From the IMG/VR virus record IMGVR_UViG_3300022752_000194, positions 1 to 36,603 of that record: 36,603 nucleotides of DNA. One strand, 5' to 3'. The DNA comes from a virus. Shown in pieces: positions 11,572-20,646 of this stretch (positions are counted from its first letter, which is position 1; every line of letters starts with the position of its first letter). The notes below the pieces were generated by a model. The model saw nothing but the letters and a program-made list of their open reading frames with translations. It was not told the origin of the DNA and did no database searches. The translations under genes and the position numbers were made by a program.

Positions 11572-12681
11572 CTAGGCTGCTGGCTCGTCCTGCGCGGCGG
11601 CCCAGCCTGCCAGTAGCCCAGAGCGGTAGTGCGGCGACAAATCTGGCGGCACGCCGTCGGATGCCGCCATGTCCTGTTGCTCAACTCGGGCGGGGCAGGG
11701 GAGGCCAGCCCCGCCGATTGCCTTCCCGCGGGCGTGGCCGGCCCGCAGGGCGGCTTCCCGGGCCTGGGCAGACGGATCATCCGGCTCGCCGGCTTCGCGG
11801 TCGGACAGTTTGATCTTCGGCAGCATCTCCACGAACGTCCGCGTGGGTTTGGCGATCGTCGGATCGACATAGTGGGCCTGGGTGGTGGTGGGCGACGCGT
11901 GCCCGAGGGCGGCCGCGGCTTCCCCGAGCCCGCCGGCAGCGGCCAGATAGGAGGCGGCAGCCTTGCGAAAGCCGTGGTATCCGCGGGCTGGAACCCCCGC
12001 CCGCTTGCACAGCACGCGGAGGTGATACCAGAGGTGGTTCGGGATGCGGTCCCACTCCCAGACCCGCGCCTTGTCAGGCGATCCCCGTCGCAACTGACGC
12101 AGCCAGGAGGCCGTCTCAGACGAGATTGGACGCAGGAGGTCGCGATACCCGCCCTTTCGGTTCTCTGCCCGCAGGAGGATCACCCGCTCGTCTAGATCGA
12201 CGTCCCTCCACTCCACGGCGAGCAAGGCACCGATGCGTTCTGCGGTCTCGAAAGCCGCCCGAATCAGCGATGCGTGCCAGATGTTCGCAGGCTTGCCCGC
12301 CACGCAGCCAGGGTAGGCGAGTGCTGCGCGGATGATCGCGGACACTTCGTCGCTCTTGTACGCCTTGGGCACGCGTTTCGGAGCTCGCATTGGGGGCAGG
12401 ACCGCGGCGGGAGCGACATCGACGCGGCGGAGGCGGAACAGGTGATTCCACAATGCGCACAGGTGGGTGCGATCCTTGACGGTTGTGGCGATCGACACCT
12501 GTGCCTTTCGCGCGGACAGAAACCGCTGCACCGCGATACCCGTCAAATCCGATATGAGCGGGTCGTGCCCGAGATGATCGCGGAACTTTTCGATGGATAG
12601 CCGAAACTGTAGGTGAGCCTTCGGCTTCAGTCCGCGAAGCGGCGCGTAGTCATCATTCAAGATGTCGATCAGTCTGGTCAT
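11572..12681 (-). CDS. int: Tyrosine recombinase, phage integrase
   Basis: Start chosen at 12681 (MTRLIDILN) because GAGAGG precedes it at a good distance; an upstream ATG at 12708 exists but lacks one. The product is 369 aa. An N-terminal core-binding SAM-like domain (about 1-95) is followed by the catalytic domain with R149 (ETAERIGALL), K176, H236-x-x-R239 (YHGFRKA), H261 (LGHASPTTT) and Y271 (AHYVDP), the full set for a functional enzyme. A 98-residue C-terminal tail rich in Ala/Gly/Asp is unusual. It is the only clear minus-strand gene and lies beside a small HTH gene, the classical lysogeny arrangement. Confidence 0.92.
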   Translation of the reverse strand: MTRLIDILNDDYAPLRGLKPKAHLQFRLSIEKFRDHLGHDPLISDLTGIAVQRFLSARKAQVSIATTVKDRTHLCALWNHLFRLRRVDVAPAAVLPPMRAPKRVPKAYKSDEVSAIIRAALAYPGCVAGKPANIWHASLIRAAFETAERIGALLAVEWRDVDLDERVILLRAENRKGGYRDLLRPISSETASWLRQLRRGSPDKARVWEWDRIPNHLWYHLRVLCKRAGVPARGYHGFRKAAASYLAAAGGLGEAAAALGHASPTTTQAHYVDPTIAKPTRTFVEMLPKIKLSDREAGEPDDPSAQAREAALRAGHARGKAIGGAGLPCPARVEQQDMAASDGVPPDLSPHYRSGLLAGWAAAQDEPAA

Positions 12682-12699
12682 GATTGCCTCTCGCTGTGG

Positions 12700-12712
12700 T
12701 GGCATCATGCCA
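12700..12712. promoter_or_regulatory. 13-bp palindrome in the integrase leader
   Basis: TGGCAT-C-ATGCCA is a perfect inverted repeat just upstream of the preferred integrase start (12681). Its position between the start and the divergent intergenic region suits an operator for integrase control, but no bound protein can be named from sequence. Confidence 0.35.
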
Positions 12713-16952: not shown

Positions 16953-17304
16953 CTATCGCCGCGACTTTGAAACGACTTCGGACTACCGCCGACGGATCGC
17001 TCGCGAGATCGACGATGACGCGGCGCAGCCCGAAGCACCGGTGATTCAGCAGGCTCCAGTGAAGCCGGCAAGCGACCTCGTGAGCGAAACGCTTGAGAGT
17101 CGCGGGGGGATCGTTGAGCGCGTGCGCGTTTACGCGAACGGCACGCGGATCACGTCGTGGTCGTTCGCGGACGGTTGGACGCCGCCCGCTGGCGGCAGCG
17201 ATGGCTTGAAGCCAGGGAGCGCGGCTGCTCGCGCCGCGTTTCAGGCCGGGCGGGAAGAGGAGTACATCGACCGGATGCAGGGACGTTTTGGAGGGGAGTG
17301 GTGA
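16945..17304 (+). CDS. Hypothetical protein (119 aa)
   Basis: ATG at 16945 with GGAGGAG upstream. The N-terminus is charged (MPDYRRDFETTSDYRRRI) and the centre has a VERVRVYANGTRITSW beta segment. The end is a Gly/Ala-rich helix with EEEYIDRMQGRFGGEW. Its stop shares a base with the start of the large fusion gene. No family recognised. Confidence 0.55.
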   Translation: MPDYRRDFETTSDYRRRIAREIDDDAAQPEAPVIQQAPVKPASDLVSETLESRGGIVERVRVYANGTRITSWSFADGWTPPAGGSDGLKPGSAAARAAFQAGREEEYIDRMQGRFGGEW

Positions 17305-19490
17305 TGCGAAGGCTTCTGGTTGAGCGATACAAGCCGAAACTCACCGTGTCGAGTAATCGCAAGGGCGTGATCGACATCGACACCGTAAAAGGCTGCACGC
17401 TTGGAATGAAAGCCAGACCCAACGGCGGATGTTACGGGCACTGCTACGCCAACAAAACTGCCGAACTGTACGGCTTTGATTTTCCGACCAGCGTTAGTAG
17501 GCAGATTGACGAACGAGAAAAGCAGGTGATCGAGCGTCAACTGATGGCTCATCCGGCGACGTGGTTTCGCATCGGAAACATGGGAGACCCGTGTCACGAC
17601 TGGGAGCTGACCGTAGAGGCTTGCGAGTGGCTCGGAAAGCTAAAGACGCCGGTTGTGGTTACTAAACACTGGATCAAAGCAACTGATGATCACATGTCGA
17701 GAATGTCCGCCGCTGGGGTCGTGCTCAACACTTCAGTATCAGCGTTGGACACGCCAGCGGAGTTGCACGTCAGGCTTCGCGAGTGGAGACGTGCTACTGA
17801 CTTTGGCATGCGGTCTTTGCTTCGGGTTGTTTCGTGCAAGTTTGGCGACACAGAAGAGGGTCGCCGCATGGCAGCAATTCAAGATTCAATTTTTGAAACG
17901 GCCGGCGAGCTAGTAATTGACAATCCCTTGCGAATACCAGCCTCAGATCCGCGAGTCATCGCCGGAGACATCGTGATTGAGCGACACAAAAACCTAGGCG
18001 GCGGTGCGTGGGTGAGCATCCAAAACCATTCCACATACATCGGCACTTGCGAACAGTGCCCCGACCAGTGCGGAGTCCTGGGAGCATTTGAAAGGCAGCA
18101 AGCGATGAAGACTCTTTTGCCATGCGAGACAGTTGAGTGCGTGTACGTCGAACAGGTGCTCGGATCGGAGTACCAAAACGCGATTGCAAAGCTCGCGATC
18201 GAAGACAAGGTTGCCTATCGTGCGGCTCGGAAAAACATGCAGATTCATTCTGCGATCGTGCTCCTTGTTGATGGAGCGTTCACCGGATTTTTCACGTTTC
18301 AAGTCAACCACGAAGCCGGCGAGTTTTGTTTGCTTCAGTCAGCGATGGTGCCGGGCCTCGAAAACAAAGCGCAGTATCAAATGATGGTTGATGCGATCGT
18401 GCAGCGGAACACGTTCGGCTACCCGATGTTTCTGACGTGCAGCACAAAACACAAGCTGGAACGCCCCAGCGTGTTTGAGGGATGCGGTTTTTGGACGTAC
18501 CTAGAACTCAGCGGCTACTGCTACATGGTTCATGGCACCGAACCGCAAGCCAGGCTCAAGCGGTTGGCTCACGCAACCATGACGAACGCCTGGACCACAA
18601 CGCGGGCCGACTGGCTGAAGATGAAGCGCGAGTGGAACGCCAAGATCAACGAAGCCGGGAAGGCGGCCGGAGTTGCCAACGCCACGTATGCGACGCGCGA
18701 TGGCTGCTGGCAGGGAAGCAACGGCATGTCAAATGTCGTGCTAACAGAAAGGGTGATAGAGGGCGACGGCGTCAAGGAAGTTCGCGGTAAGTCGTTCAAC
18801 GGGAACGCTTCTGTTCTTGACCCGGTGGCATGCGAGACGATCCTGCGTTTTTTTATGCCCAGCGGTGGCCGCCGCGTTTACAACCCGTTCGGAGGCGGCG
18901 TTCAGTTTGGGTTTGTCACGGCGTCATATGGTTTGGAATACGTCGCCAGCGAGATTCGAAAGAACCAGTGCGACGCCAATAACGCGATCTGTTCGCAGTT
19001 GTCATCTGCGACGTGGGTTCAGTCGGACAGCAGTCAGTACACGCCGGAAGGTAAGTTCGACCTCTGCTTCACATGCCCGCCGTATTACCAAGTCGAGGAA
19101 TACCTTGACTACGACGGCAAGCCACCAGCCGGCGAACTGAACAGCCTGCCAACGTACGGCGAGTTCCGGGACATGCTCTTCGCTGGCTATCAGCGTGCGA
19201 TCGACGCATTGGATGACAACCGCTTCTTCGTTGTCATGACAGGCGACTCGCGAGACAAGCACGGCGGATATTACGGGTGCGAAGCGGAGCACGAGCTATT
19301 TTTCCGCGATCGTGGCCTGCATATCTACAACAAGATCGTCTACCTCGAGTGCGAGTTCACAAGGCTCGCTCACGCGAAGGTAACGCTGAACTACCGGAAG
19401 TTCCCGAAGCGAGAGCAAAAGATTCTTGTTTTCTTCAAGGGCGATCCCAAGAAGATCAAGTTGCTGTTCCCGCCGGTGGGGAGGCTGTGA
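17304..19490 (+). CDS. Three-part fusion: radical-SAM-like, GNAT/Mom-like and DNA methyltransferase domains
   Basis: Start chosen at ATG 17304 (728 aa), touching the previous stop. Residues 1-260 carry C31, C43 and C47 (GC..., GGCYGHCYA), a spacing like DUF5131/Gp37-type radical-SAM relatives. Barrel-like strands follow (WFRIGNMGDP, TPVVVTKHW, VVLNTSVSA), then a second cluster CEQCPDQC (249-256). Residues about 285-412 look like a GNAT fold (SAIVLLVDGAFTGFFTF, then MFLTCSTKHKLERPSVFEGCGFW), comparable in outline with phage Mu Mom. Residues about 500-715 are a DNA amino-methyltransferase: motif I-like VYNPFGGG (525-532), ASEIRKNQ, and catalytic motif TCPPYY (590-595). The first 1.2 kb is visibly richer in A/T. 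A DNA hypermodification role is inference. Confidence 0.7.
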   Translation: MRRLLVERYKPKLTVSSNRKGVIDIDTVKGCTLGMKARPNGGCYGHCYANKTAELYGFDFPTSVSRQIDEREKQVIERQLMAHPATWFRIGNMGDPCHDWELTVEACEWLGKLKTPVVVTKHWIKATDDHMSRMSAAGVVLNTSVSALDTPAELHVRLREWRRATDFGMRSLLRVVSCKFGDTEEGRRMAAIQDSIFETAGELVIDNPLRIPASDPRVIAGDIVIERHKNLGGGAWVSIQNHSTYIGTCEQCPDQCGVLGAFERQQAMKTLLPCETVECVYVEQVLGSEYQNAIAKLAIEDKVAYRAARKNMQIHSAIVLLVDGAFTGFFTFQVNHEAGEFCLLQSAMVPGLENKAQYQMMVDAIVQRNTFGYPMFLTCSTKHKLERPSVFEGCGFWTYLELSGYCYMVHGTEPQARLKRLAHATMTNAWTTTRADWLKMKREWNAKINEAGKAAGVANATYATRDGCWQGSNGMSNVVLTERVIEGDGVKEVRGKSFNGNASVLDPVACETILRFFMPSGGRRVYNPFGGGVQFGFVTASYGLEYVASEIRKNQCDANNAICSQLSSATWVQSDSSQYTPEGKFDLCFTCPPYYQVEEYLDYDGKPPAGELNSLPTYGEFRDMLFAGYQRAIDALDDNRFFVVMTGDSRDKHGGYYGCEAEHELFFRDRGLHIYNKIVYLECEFTRLAHAKVTLNYRKFPKREQKILVFFKGDPKKIKLLFPPVGRL

Positions 19491-20317
19491 TGATGGGTAT
19501 CAAAATCAAAACCTTCTCCGACCTCGCCCCGCTCTACCTCGCGCAGCGTCGCGTCACGCCGACCTACGCCCGCAACGTGGCGAAGGTCGCGTCTCGTGCG
19601 GGCCTCGTCACGGCCGACGATCTGAACCGGCACCTCCGAGCCCGGGCGGAGATCGTCGAGAGCACGACGGCCAGGAGCGAGCGGACGATCCTGCTCTCGC
19701 TTTGGCGGTGGGCGTATGACGCCGGCGTCGTGGAGCACGCCCCACGCGGCATCATGAAGATCAAGATCCGCCGCCGGCCGACGAAGGCATGGACGGTGCC
19801 GCAACTGCGGCAGTTGCTCGAAGCGACGAAAGCTCACGACGGCAAGCGGCTCCGCAGCGGTGCGGATCTCGGGTTGTTCCTTCGGTGCTGGGTGCTCGTC
19901 TGCTACGAGACGGGCAGCCGCTTCGGCGATTGCATGGCGTTCACGCGTGACAACCTTCTCGACGATGCCCTCGCGTGGACGCAGTCGAAGACCGGCGACC
20001 CGCTCGTGCGACCGCTCACACCGGCCTGCCTCACGGCGATCGACGCGATGCTCGCCAAGTCTCCCGACGGGCGGATTCTCGGCTGGGCCTGTGGGCGACG
20101 CATGGCGATGCGGTGGATGCGGACGCTGATCGACAGCATCGGCATCGGCGGCACGTCGAAGTTTCTTCGCCGCAGCGGGGCGACACACGTCGAGATGGAA
20201 AAGGCCGGGGCCGGGAGGCTTCACCTGGGACATCGGTCGCCTGCACTTTTTGAACAGGCATATTGCGATTGGTCTCAACTTAGAACGAAGACGCCGAAGA
20301 CGCCGGCGCTTATGTGA
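19490..20317 (+). CDS. Second tyrosine recombinase
   Basis: ATG at 19490 overlaps the fusion gene stop by one base; a second ATG follows at 19493. The 275-aa product has a short N-terminal SAM-like domain (TFSDLAPLYLAQRRVTPTYARN) and a catalytic domain with R144 (ETGSRFGDCM), K167, R227 in KFLRRSGAT, H248 (HLGHRSP) and Y258 (QAYCDW). The usual HxxR histidine is K224 instead. It is shorter than the minus-strand integrase and lacks its C-terminal tail. Its position in the early replication block suggests a role other than prophage integration, such as resolution or recombination with another site. Confidence 0.8.
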   Translation: MMGIKIKTFSDLAPLYLAQRRVTPTYARNVAKVASRAGLVTADDLNRHLRARAEIVESTTARSERTILLSLWRWAYDAGVVEHAPRGIMKIKIRRRPTKAWTVPQLRQLLEATKAHDGKRLRSGADLGLFLRCWVLVCYETGSRFGDCMAFTRDNLLDDALAWTQSKTGDPLVRPLTPACLTAIDAMLAKSPDGRILGWACGRRMAMRWMRTLIDSIGIGGTSKFLRRSGATHVEMEKAGAGRLHLGHRSPALFEQAYCDWSQLRTKTPKTPALM

Positions 20318-20343
20318 TTCATCAACGGCAAAGGAGTGCCGCA

Positions 20344-20646
20344 ATGACAACAGACCTTCAAGACCTACCACTCTTCCGGCAGTCGAACCCTGCGACAAGC
20401 CGCGCCGCTGCTGAAGCGTCAAAGAAGTTTCGCGGCGAGCACGAGCGGCGGATTCTGGAAGCACTCGAGCTCGGGCCGGCACACCGCGATGAGATCGCCA
20501 GACGTTCCGGCCTGGAGCAGTCGGCAGTGTGGCGTCGGCTTGCTGCCTTGGAGCGCCGCGGCGAGATCGAGCGGACAGGCGAAGTCGCTCGCGGAGAGAG
20601 CGGGATGAAGCAGGGAGTGTATCGGATCACGGCGGCGTCGCGTTGA
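20344..20646 (+). CDS. Winged-helix DNA-binding protein
   Basis: ATG at 20344 preceded by AAAGGAG. The 100-aa product has a clear winged-helix: HERRILEALELGPAHRDEIARRSGLEQSAVWRRLAALERRGEIERTG, with recognition helix SAVWRRLAALE and a wing that ends in VYRIT. Phage proteins of this size often act as transcription or replication regulators. Its stop overlaps possible starts of the next gene. The target is unknown. Confidence 0.75.
   Translation: MTTDLQDLPLFRQSNPATSRAAAEASKKFRGEHERRILEALELGPAHRDEIARRSGLEQSAVWRRLAALERRGEIERTGEVARGESGMKQGVYRITAASR

Follow-up and report, generated by a model that had tools for sequence, protein, structure and literature searches.

The window analyzed here, the whole stretch of 36,603 nucleotides of viral DNA, raises a puzzle: What could a phage gene do that joins, in one chain of 728 residues, a predicted radical-SAM enzyme, a GNAT-fold domain and an amino-methyltransferase (MTase)? 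A first-pass annotation had claimed such a three-part gene, and the ORF on which the claim was built is real: its start, ATG at 17304, shares letters with the stop codon of the preceding ORF (TGATG, 17302-17306), and the AlphaFold model of the full chain has a mean pLDDT of 86.9. The three folds of that reading stood up to analysis, while the relation to Mom and the membership of DUF5131 that came with it did not. What is new is the architecture, three parts in one chain, the general kind being already known; a description of this fusion was not found among the entries listed from an open-access library that excludes most subscription papers and bioRxiv. The features are the following, all on the plus strand.

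17290-17296, plus strand: Shine-Dalgarno-like ggagggg ahead of ATG 17304 (sequence)
17304-19490, plus strand: whole gene, 728 aa, fusion of radical-SAM, GNAT and amino-methyltransferase parts (ORF, AlphaFold model)
17304-18089, plus strand: radical-SAM domain, residues 1-262 (own model, Foldseek, VIA)
17394-17444, plus strand: C31-x11-C43-x3-C47, presumed [4Fe-4S] ligands, directly after strand beta-1 (conservation, model)
17583-17591, plus strand: G94-D95-P96 after strand beta-2, at the position of the GGEP-type motif that binds SAM (conservation, model)
18048-18071, plus strand: C249-x2-C252-x3-C256 (CEQCPDQC), possible auxiliary Fe-S or zinc site (invariant)
18126-18536, plus strand: GNAT-fold domain, residues about 275-411 (VIA, conservation)
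18537-18683, plus strand: helical linker, residues 412-460 (model, by-eye comparison)
18684-19487, plus strand: amino-methyltransferase domain, residues 461-728 (phrog, Pfam, VIA)
18876-18899, plus strand: motif I, VYNPFGGG, SAM binding, residues 525-532 (conservation)
19071-19088, plus strand: motif IV, TCPPYY, catalytic pocket with C replacing D/N/S, residues 590-595 (conservation)

The acquisition of a module had also been argued from a distinct base composition of the first 1.2 kb of the gene. GC is indeed low there (0.537, the remainder having 0.572), but it is low over the whole gene (0.552 vs. 0.622 in the window), which leaves the argument unsupported as stated. Support for a putative modular assembly comes from the comparison of relatives, in which the radical-SAM part is fused in some and separate in others; full-length fused ORFs number 16 in loci L001-L081, the window's own (L001) included.

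Radical-SAM Domain

Modeled separately, residues 1-262 (pLDDT 94.2, pTM 0.91) form a partial (beta/alpha) TIM-barrel in the predicted structure. Their best Foldseek match is spore photoproduct lyase (E 9.1e-5), as are all three matches at E <= 0.001, and the same enzyme is nearest among the matches listed by VIA (Z 12.5, rmsd 4.4, 224 aligned), level with viperin-like enzymes (Z 12.3, likewise among the matches listed); all 50 matches in that list we take to be radical-SAM enzymes. The cysteine clusters pointed out earlier, C31/C43/C47 and CEQCPDQC, are present and conserved across 51 N-domain sequences, hence no chance occurrence: C31 and C43 are each found in 50 of the 51, the exception being a gap, while C47 (51/51) and C249, C252 and C256 (all 51/51) are invariant. 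The three-cysteine motif follows strand beta-1 of the model (residues 28-30), with spacings of 9-11 and 3 across the 51 sequences that differ from the canonical CX3CX2C. After strand beta-2 (residues 87-90 in the model), where radical-SAM enzymes have their SAM-binding GGEP-type motif, D95 and P96 are invariant and G94 is retained in 47 of 51 sequences.

At E <= 1, residues 1-262 gave zero Pfam matches, PF04055 included, and PF04055 is absent from the 25 of 26 families listed for the 51 relatives; divergent radical-SAM members can miss PF04055. Solved structures searched by sequence with the profiles of this N-terminal (N-type) radical SAM, of the GNAT domain and of the second radical-SAM family introduced below yielded no credible relative, the matches to a ribosomal protein (E 0.9) and flagellin (E 3.1) being taken as chance. 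Membership of DUF5131 (PF07505) was rejected, since the window protein does not match the family model; four of the 51 relatives match it weakly (best E 0.001), and a PF07505 search found it in 0 of 9 records, the window's among them, with controls positive in 2 of 14. The radical-SAM fold proposed for the N-terminus is nonetheless borne out by the structure models and by its recurrent replacement, in the same operon slot, by a protein that does match PF04055. A radical-SAM enzyme by fold is thus the supported reading of residues 1-262, whose cluster and 5'-deoxyadenosyl chemistry are predicted.

GNAT-Fold Domain and Linker

The middle of the chain had been described as GNAT-like with a Mom-like outline. 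Structure comparison by VIA confirms the fold (Z 16.0 to 1xeb_E, rmsd 2.2, 129 aligned), in which the stretches RAARKNMQ-x-HSA (306-317) and EFCLLQS (340-346) are invariant. The profile of the domain matches the second GNAT of locus L021 at 99.6%, and that GNAT scores 18.4 bits with PF00583 (cut-off 20.7). The CoA loop Q/R-x-x-G-x-G/A after beta-4, usual in GNATs if not universal, has no counterpart here, as no glycine is conserved at 349-360 in 37 sequences. With the fold present and the loop missing, we speak of a GNAT-fold domain and avoid calling it an acetyl-CoA-dependent acetyltransferase; it may be non-catalytic.

As to Mom (PF25680), the likeness does not extend beyond the general GNAT outline; by eye, neither protein has a glycine-rich CoA loop, whereas Mom's H-Y pair is missing from the window protein. 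Profile comparison did not relate the two: a first, weak test against 5 Mom sequences gave a probability of 0.1%, and the retest against 84 (80 further loci added) gave 0.3%, within the 0.1-0.6% of unrelated profile pairs, and Mom membership was rejected. The helical linker that follows the domain resembles, by eye, W-containing stretches in ParB_N-MTase relatives, namely P2559S gp66, ZRG1, and a Riemerella protein.

Methyltransferase Domain

Residues 461-728 match phrog_12517 (E 3.5e-37) and phrog_498, "DNA methyltransferase" (E 1.9e-35), and weakly PF01555 (E 0.071). VIA returns a methyltransferase fold (Z 17.4), the best structural matches being to enzymes that methylate RNA, Trm11 and TrmN among them, with METTL5 also listed. 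All 75 non-redundant homologues have NPFGGG, and all 75 have CPPY; motif IV of amino-methyltransferases is usually D/N/S-PPY, and C occupies its first position also in the aligned cultured relatives. The phrog matches, the fold and the order of motifs I-IV agree with the C-terminal amino-methyltransferase that had been recognized from VYNPFGGG and TCPPYY. The domain is, on this support, a predicted amino-methyltransferase (N6/N4 type) of the phage ParB_N-MTase family, and to judge from that family it would transfer methyl to DNA. No match to ParB_N was obtained in the window protein, in which the GNAT stands in its place; hence, the protein has the MTase domain of the family and is itself no ParB_N-MTase.

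Coupling of GNAT-MTase with Radical-SAM Enzymes

The strongest evidence on this gene is comparative genomics, for the GNAT-MTase is persistently coupled with radical-SAM enzymes. In a set of 75 GNAT-MTase proteins, non-redundant at 95% and drawn in 70 cases from viral contigs, 72 are fused to a radical-SAM enzyme or have one next to them. It is of the N-type in 62 (19 fused, 39 downstream, 4 upstream) and of a second family, always downstream, in 10; no partner was seen in 3, loci L044 and L173 being counted as partnered on their coordinates. IMG/VR contains 251 stretches encoding a relative of the GNAT-MTase, of which the 80 kept and examined all carry both domains, and a scan with two patterns within the GNAT-MTase part only places a radical-SAM partner in 76 of these 80. 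Searched with the same profiles, 80 ParB-MTase control loci, IMG/VR relatives of ZRG1 with 3-kb flanks, gave no match to either radical SAM.

The second family is represented by the protein of L067, which matches PF04055 with E 2.6e-11. Its placement on the GNAT-MTase tree requires 10 changes, at least 8 of them forced by supported branches, and a single clade for it is rejected (p-AU 7e-51). Fusion requires 9 changes, at least 6 of them forced, on a tree whose bootstrap is not fully settled. Each family also has other neighbors, seen in single contigs or near-copies that are not to be read as counts: the N-type adjoins a TET-associated glycosyltransferase (L254), ParB_N (L250), and PAPS reductase (L252), and the second family adjoins ParB_N (L095) and a C5 DNA methylase (L087). 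When the ORFs of L002-L081 were clustered by BLAST, no third partner emerged as frequent as the cassette; what recurred were terminase (24 loci), genes for replication and packaging, and shadow ORFs antisense to the cassette.

There are exceptions to the coupling. The 40.8-kb contig of L169 encodes a GNAT-MTase without any radical-SAM profile match in its 9.4-kb locus; over the whole record, PF04055 was not found (controls 14/14), nor was the N-type in a search run without positive control. Riemerella columbipharyngis has an MTase of the same family behind a different N-terminal domain, and its genome gave no N-type match, again in a search without positive control. No match to the N-type radical-SAM and GNAT parts was returned by tblastn against 50,697 phage records, so the family has escaped cultured phage biology.

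Proposed Function and Its Alternatives

Considering the family and the gene context, with three folds by prediction, we lean, with slightly more belief than doubt, toward a phage-encoded module for DNA-base hypermodification; the recurrence of the three parts as neighboring genes in many uncultivated phages suggests an undescribed route to a modified DNA base. The C-terminal domain would bind DNA and SAM and, as its family implies, pass a group taken from SAM, in the simplest case methyl, to the exocyclic amine of a base. The radical-SAM domain, whose fold is modeled, would produce a 5'-deoxyadenosyl radical at a [4Fe-4S] cluster, and the radical would then functionalize the installed group or the base. 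The GNAT domain might add or handle an acyl or aminoacyl group, probably without classical acetyl-CoA binding given the missing P-loop signature, and the finished base could, following precedent, hide phage DNA from host nucleases. Counting against hypermodification are the RNA-methyltransferase-like fold, CPPY, the missing CoA loop, the atypical cysteine spacing, the failure of PF04055 to match residues 1-262, L169, and Riemerella.

A more specific form of this proposal, which we hold tentatively and with more doubt than belief, is that the gene represents an undescribed class, in which a bulky, carbon-bearing modification arises as the three domains work one after another on a single base, with radical chemistry directed at a methyl or other SAM-derived group and either radical-SAM family in the slot. 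As a variant, the MTase clade may be specialized in remodeled SAM groups, aminopropyl in its SAMDC-linked sister family. If true, the base would add to the DNA modifications known so far and provide a new shielding of phage genomes. The family is common in uncultivated phages, and its single-chain version, being compact, is well suited to expression and nucleoside mass spectrometry.

How else could the coupling be explained? It is unlikely, if worth serious weighing, that a SAM-derived donor is made or modified by the radical-SAM part, the GNAT part or both, and that the MTase transfers the remodeled group from it to DNA. Synechococcus phage S-B43 sets a precedent, in which CmoA produces Cx-SAM and CmoX carboxymethylates cytosine (PMC12783734). 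The MTase family may, moreover, use altered SAM, as AdoMet decarboxylase lies beside sister ParB_N-MTases in 64 of 79 loci, that of P2559S being a proven AdoMetDC (PMC9992855). However, the GNAT-MTases retain NPFGGG (75/75), where their SAMDC-linked sisters carry FAGD or FSGD (65/65), and SAM decarboxylase was looked for in GNAT-MTase loci and not found; both facts suggest that the window protein uses ordinary SAM. The gene might also encode a sequence-specific DNA methyltransferase to which the other parts are accessory, serving DNA binding, regulation, or a separate small-molecule reaction. The MTase domain alone does give clear family matches, and the GNAT, at the place of ParB_N and without the CoA loop, could be a DNA-binding module; yet this explanation appears decidedly unlikely in view of the deep conservation of the GNAT and radical-SAM motif regions and of the partnership formed time and again with one or the other radical-SAM family, both of which are difficult to account for if the product can be made without radical chemistry.

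The resemblance of the MTase fold to Trm11 and TrmN would suit an enzyme modifying tRNA or rRNA, as would the order of radical SAM before GNAT, which is that of Elp3, with a methyltransferase step added. We consider such an RNA enzyme quite improbable, because the window protein (P0001) has a weak match to PrmC and to nothing else in NCBIfam at E <= 1, ParB_N sits on the MTase relatives, and DNA-modification genes figure among the radical-SAM neighbors. Elp3 gave no NCBIfam match at this threshold and was not recognized among the 50 VIA matches listed, which excludes nothing. That the phage carries a defense or signaling enzyme, for instance a viperin-like maker of nucleotide analogues, is scarcely credible despite the viperin-like enzymes among the closest folds listed: three radical-SAM proteins had no PADLOC match, the MTase part matched MTase models and, weakly, mad2 in PADLOC, and neither the GNAT-MTase partner nor the DNA-modification neighbors fit.

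Relation to Known Systems

The hypermodification module that we prefer has its nearest known counterparts in the phage ParB_N-MTase fusions of phrog_498, such as Croceibacter phage P2559S gp66 (placed by eye beside the MTase domain of the GNAT-MTase), Pseudomonas phage ZRG1, Listeria phage B054 gp77, and Enterococcus phage phiFL3A gp36. They share with the window protein a C-terminal MTase with CPPY, a linker similar by eye, and the phage setting, but have ParB_N instead of GNAT; among the 80 IMG/VR relatives of ZRG1 examined, many have SAM decarboxylase as a neighbor, and neither radical SAM was found. Spore photoproduct lyase and other radical-SAM enzymes have the partial TIM-barrel, three cysteines after beta-1, and G-D-P after beta-2 in common with the window protein, which departs from them in its cysteine spacing, its extra C-terminal CX2CX3C, and its fusion to GNAT-MTase. 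In the phage M6-type hypermodification of thymidine that Lee et al. are said to have described, a radical-SAM enzyme and an acetyltransferase reportedly act on a DNA base; that route is said to start from hydroxymethyl-dU and to involve kinase and PLP steps, without a methyltransferase domain. The CmoA-CmoX-CmoY system of S-B43 likewise combines a phage enzyme of MTase fold with further enzymes in a large base modification, but it relies on a C5-cytosine enzyme, Cx-SAM and an ATP-dependent ligase (PMC12783734), and neither "radical" nor "acetyltransferase" is used anywhere in the main text of that paper. According to the same paper, CmoA-CmoX-CmoY genes are often near ParB genes.

Domain Structure of the Fusion Protein

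The window, a virus record of 36,603 bases, is a tailed and probably temperate phage, with genes for a tape measure protein, two integrase-like proteins, a Sak4-like protein, a DnaB-like helicase and DNA-polymerase processivity. The gene considered here lies between the region of an SSB-like gene (a weak match, E 5e-4) and an integrase, with an ATG start that overlaps the upstream stop codon and a strong Shine-Dalgarno sequence. The single window holds two integrase-like genes.

11572-12708, minus strand: integrase-like gene 1
17304-19490, plus strand: fusion gene, 728 aa
about 19487-20317, plus strand: integrase-like gene 2, directly behind the fusion gene
20314-20646, plus strand: DprA-type winged-helix domain (PF17782, E 8e-10) in a small protein

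Pfam returned a weak methylase match for the protein and nothing else, and PHROGs matched residues 469-723 with phrog_12517 and phrog_498 ('DNA methyltransferase'). When the whole protein was searched by tblastn against 50,697 phage records, 25 records matched, all inside residues 394-728, and none covered 80% of the query; there was no match among these records for residues 1-262, for L048 (a split relative) or for the GNAT part. A first IMG/VR scan yielded 128 relatives, and 80 of them were retained.

The AlphaFold2 model of the whole protein, built from an 89-row alignment that included part-length rows, had a pLDDT of 86.9, and that of the N-domain, built from 51 N-domain rows, reached pLDDT 94.2 and pTM 0.91. 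The latter is predicted to be a radical-SAM fold: its three Foldseek matches at E <= 0.001 were each spore photoproduct lyase, and VIA structure matching gave spore photoproduct lyase (Z 12.5) and a viperin-like enzyme (Z 12.3), followed lower down by BlsE, PFL activase, NifB, QueE, lipoyl synthase and others. The best matches in a viral structure library were a QueE-like phage protein and a Radical_SAM phage protein. In the predicted structure, residues 276-411 form a GNAT domain (Z 16.0) and the C-terminal part a class I methyltransferase (MTase) fold (Z 17.4 to Trm11). The radical-SAM-like N-terminal third, the GNAT-like middle and the C-terminal MTase noted by the first-pass annotation are all supported, the last also by phrog_498.

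Among 51 N-domain sequences the presumed cluster cysteines and the C-terminal CX2CX3C hardly vary, and D95, P96, W100, N142, S144, R66, R89, R174 and R210 do not vary at all. Full invariance is also seen for RAARKNMQ and HSA (306-317) and EFCLLQS (340-346) in 37 sequences of the GNAT part, which have no conserved glycine after beta-4 (349-360), and for NPFGGG and CPPY in 75 MTase domains. One relative carries a second GNAT, related to that of the window at 99.6% in profile comparison; its CoA-type loop contains G, and it matches Acetyltransf_1 just below cut-off. It is incomplete, and since the contig ends inside it, it may belong to a second GNAT-MTase in tandem.

L021, 3761-5871: GNAT-MTase, then second GNAT with MTase-type linker (by eye)

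Coupling of GNAT-MTases with Radical-SAM Enzymes

The commonest layout among relatives is split, with GNAT-MTase in one gene and the radical-SAM enzyme in a separate overlapping or adjacent gene. This enzyme belongs either to the family of window residues 1-262 (N-type) or, in other relatives such as loci L067 and L030, to a second family, the L067 member of which matches PF04055 (E 2.6e-11). By hhalign (79%), the two families would be distantly related at best; unlike the N-type, the second has four tblastn matches, all in unannotated gut phage records. The non-redundant set at 95% comprised 75 GNAT-MTases (70 viral contigs and 5 genome contigs): 19 fused, 39 with the N-type downstream, 4 with it upstream, 10 with the second family downstream and 3 in which no radical SAM was seen, L044 and L173 being placed in partnered classes by their coordinates. 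The three partnerless cases are L019 and L021, both cut by contig ends, and L168/L169. Searching these four records for the N-type, in a search that had no positive control, gave no match, nor did PF04055 match the L168 (7.3 kb) and L169 (40.8 kb) records, with controls positive.

A second scan used the GNAT-MTase part alone as query (251 relatives, 80 kept) and found a radical-SAM partner in 76 of the 80 kept loci; it is a less biased selection but not an independent sample, because many contigs are shared with the first scan. Neither radical-SAM profile, nor the GNAT profile, matched in 80 ParB-MTase control loci. In the reverse scan with the N-type radical SAM (221 loci, 80 kept), a GNAT-MTase lay on the same stretch in 71 of 80. 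The other nine include L186, L240 and L247 (contig ends) and L237 and L249 (ORF in two pieces); the remaining four have other neighbors.

L250, 4986-8239 (L251 a near-copy): N-type radical SAM, ParB_N (30 bits), another radical SAM
L252, 4188-6844: N-type radical SAM, PAPS reductase (E 1e-14), ParB_N-like gene below cut-off
L254, 234-1930: N-type radical SAM, TET-associated glycosyltransferase (E 7e-52)

The second family, too, occurs on stretches that have no GNAT-MTase.

L087, 6001-7520: second family adjoining C5 DNA methylase
L095, 6001-8014: second family adjoining ParB_N and ABC-type ATPase

On the GNAT-MTase tree, the second family requires 10 changes, at least 8 of them forced by supported branches, and fusion requires 9, at least 6 forced (5 forced for each on a quick tree); these counts are blind to gain versus loss, and the bootstrap is not fully settled. 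Placing the second family in one clade is rejected (p-AU 7e-51). That this slot has repeatedly changed from one type of radical-SAM enzyme to another is the strongest indication that radical chemistry is part of the pathway.

Relatives also lie on seven genome contigs, from five MAGs (Massilibacteroides, Desulfobacterales, Desulfobacula, an unplaced bacterium and Spirochaetes), Smithella sp. SCADC and one named strain, Riemerella columbipharyngis DSM 24015. N-type fusions occur at L107, L108, L109 and L111, whereas L110 has the split layout and L106 the second family. The Riemerella MTase has a different N-terminal domain with weak LPG_synthase_C likeness (E 0.005, below cut-off), and a search of that genome for the N-type, run with no positive control, gave no match.

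Proposed Function and the Sister ParB_N-MTases

Beyond the folds and the gene coupling, we infer the following as the most probable mechanism: the MTase domain would put a SAM-derived group onto a DNA base, the radical-SAM domain would activate a C-H bond either in that group or in the base itself, and the GNAT domain, which may be non-catalytic, would finish or prime the modification. DNA is the favored substrate on the basis of MTase family and gene neighborhood, although RNA enzymes head the structural matches of the MTase domain. The CmoA-CmoX-CmoY system shows that in phages large base modifications are made by an MTase-fold enzyme acting together with helper enzymes (PMC12783734). In a survey of ParB-fold fusions, phage ParB folds joined to predicted DNA methyltransferases are described, as are fusions to acetyltransferases (PMC12704722); the words 'radical' and 'decarboxylase' are absent from its main text. 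The radical-SAM/GNAT/MTase module is not described in the accessible portion of the Dnd reappraisal (PMC10853773), and no description of the fusion was among the results listed in searches of open-access literature.

In phages, the MTase family of the window is otherwise joined to ParB_N. A SAM decarboxylase (SAMDC) gene stands right behind the ParB_N-MTase in 2 of 10 records of phages with cultured relatives of the MTase (P2559S and ZRG1). It adjoins the ParB_N-MTase in 64 of 79 loci of IMG/VR relatives of the ZRG1 protein and is present in 43 of 55 non-redundant ones, rates biased upward because the query behind this sample was itself SAMDC-linked.

L177, 3644-5285; L339, 1982-3827; L342-L421: ParB_N-MTase, with a neighboring AdoMet decarboxylase gene in 64 of 79 IMG/VR loci
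L340, 1-2275: MTase of the same family in AlanGrant (Mycobacterium phage)
L426, 1-2301: the same in Pam4 (Pseudanabaena phage)

Motif I ends in GD, a Gly-to-Asp change (FAGD, once FSGD), in all 65 SAMDC-linked proteins; it does so in 7 of 14 proteins without SAMDC and in none of 6 from non-SAMDC cultured phages (AlanGrant, B054, phiFL3A, Funu2, HCTV-2 and Mae-JY30; Pam4 was left out, its motif I having fallen outside the match). The association has a Fisher p of 3.3e-5 (49 sequences at 80% identity, relatedness uncorrected). Because an AdoMet decarboxylase adjoins and motif I is altered, it is a fair guess that the SAMDC-linked enzymes use decarboxylated SAM and aminopropylate DNA, that is, act as DNA aminopropyltransferases. 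According to PMC9992855, SpeD of P2559S is a proven AdoMetDC, but certain other phage SpeD homologues act on ornithine or arginine as decarboxylases instead, so that AdoMetDC activity is not to be assumed for all of them. In AlanGrant, the MTase gene is followed by one noted as tryptophan-synthase-beta superfamily, and in Pam4 the gene that contains the MTase is annotated as coding for a PLP-dependent enzyme.

Some GNAT-MTase contigs carry Mom-family genes elsewhere, and such phages may therefore possess two modification systems.

L003, 322-1092; L052, 6008-6679; L071, 15819-16496; L005, 10134-10832: Mom-family genes (phmmer E 2e-61 to 6e-13)
L030, 8430-9191: Mom-family gene (Pfam)
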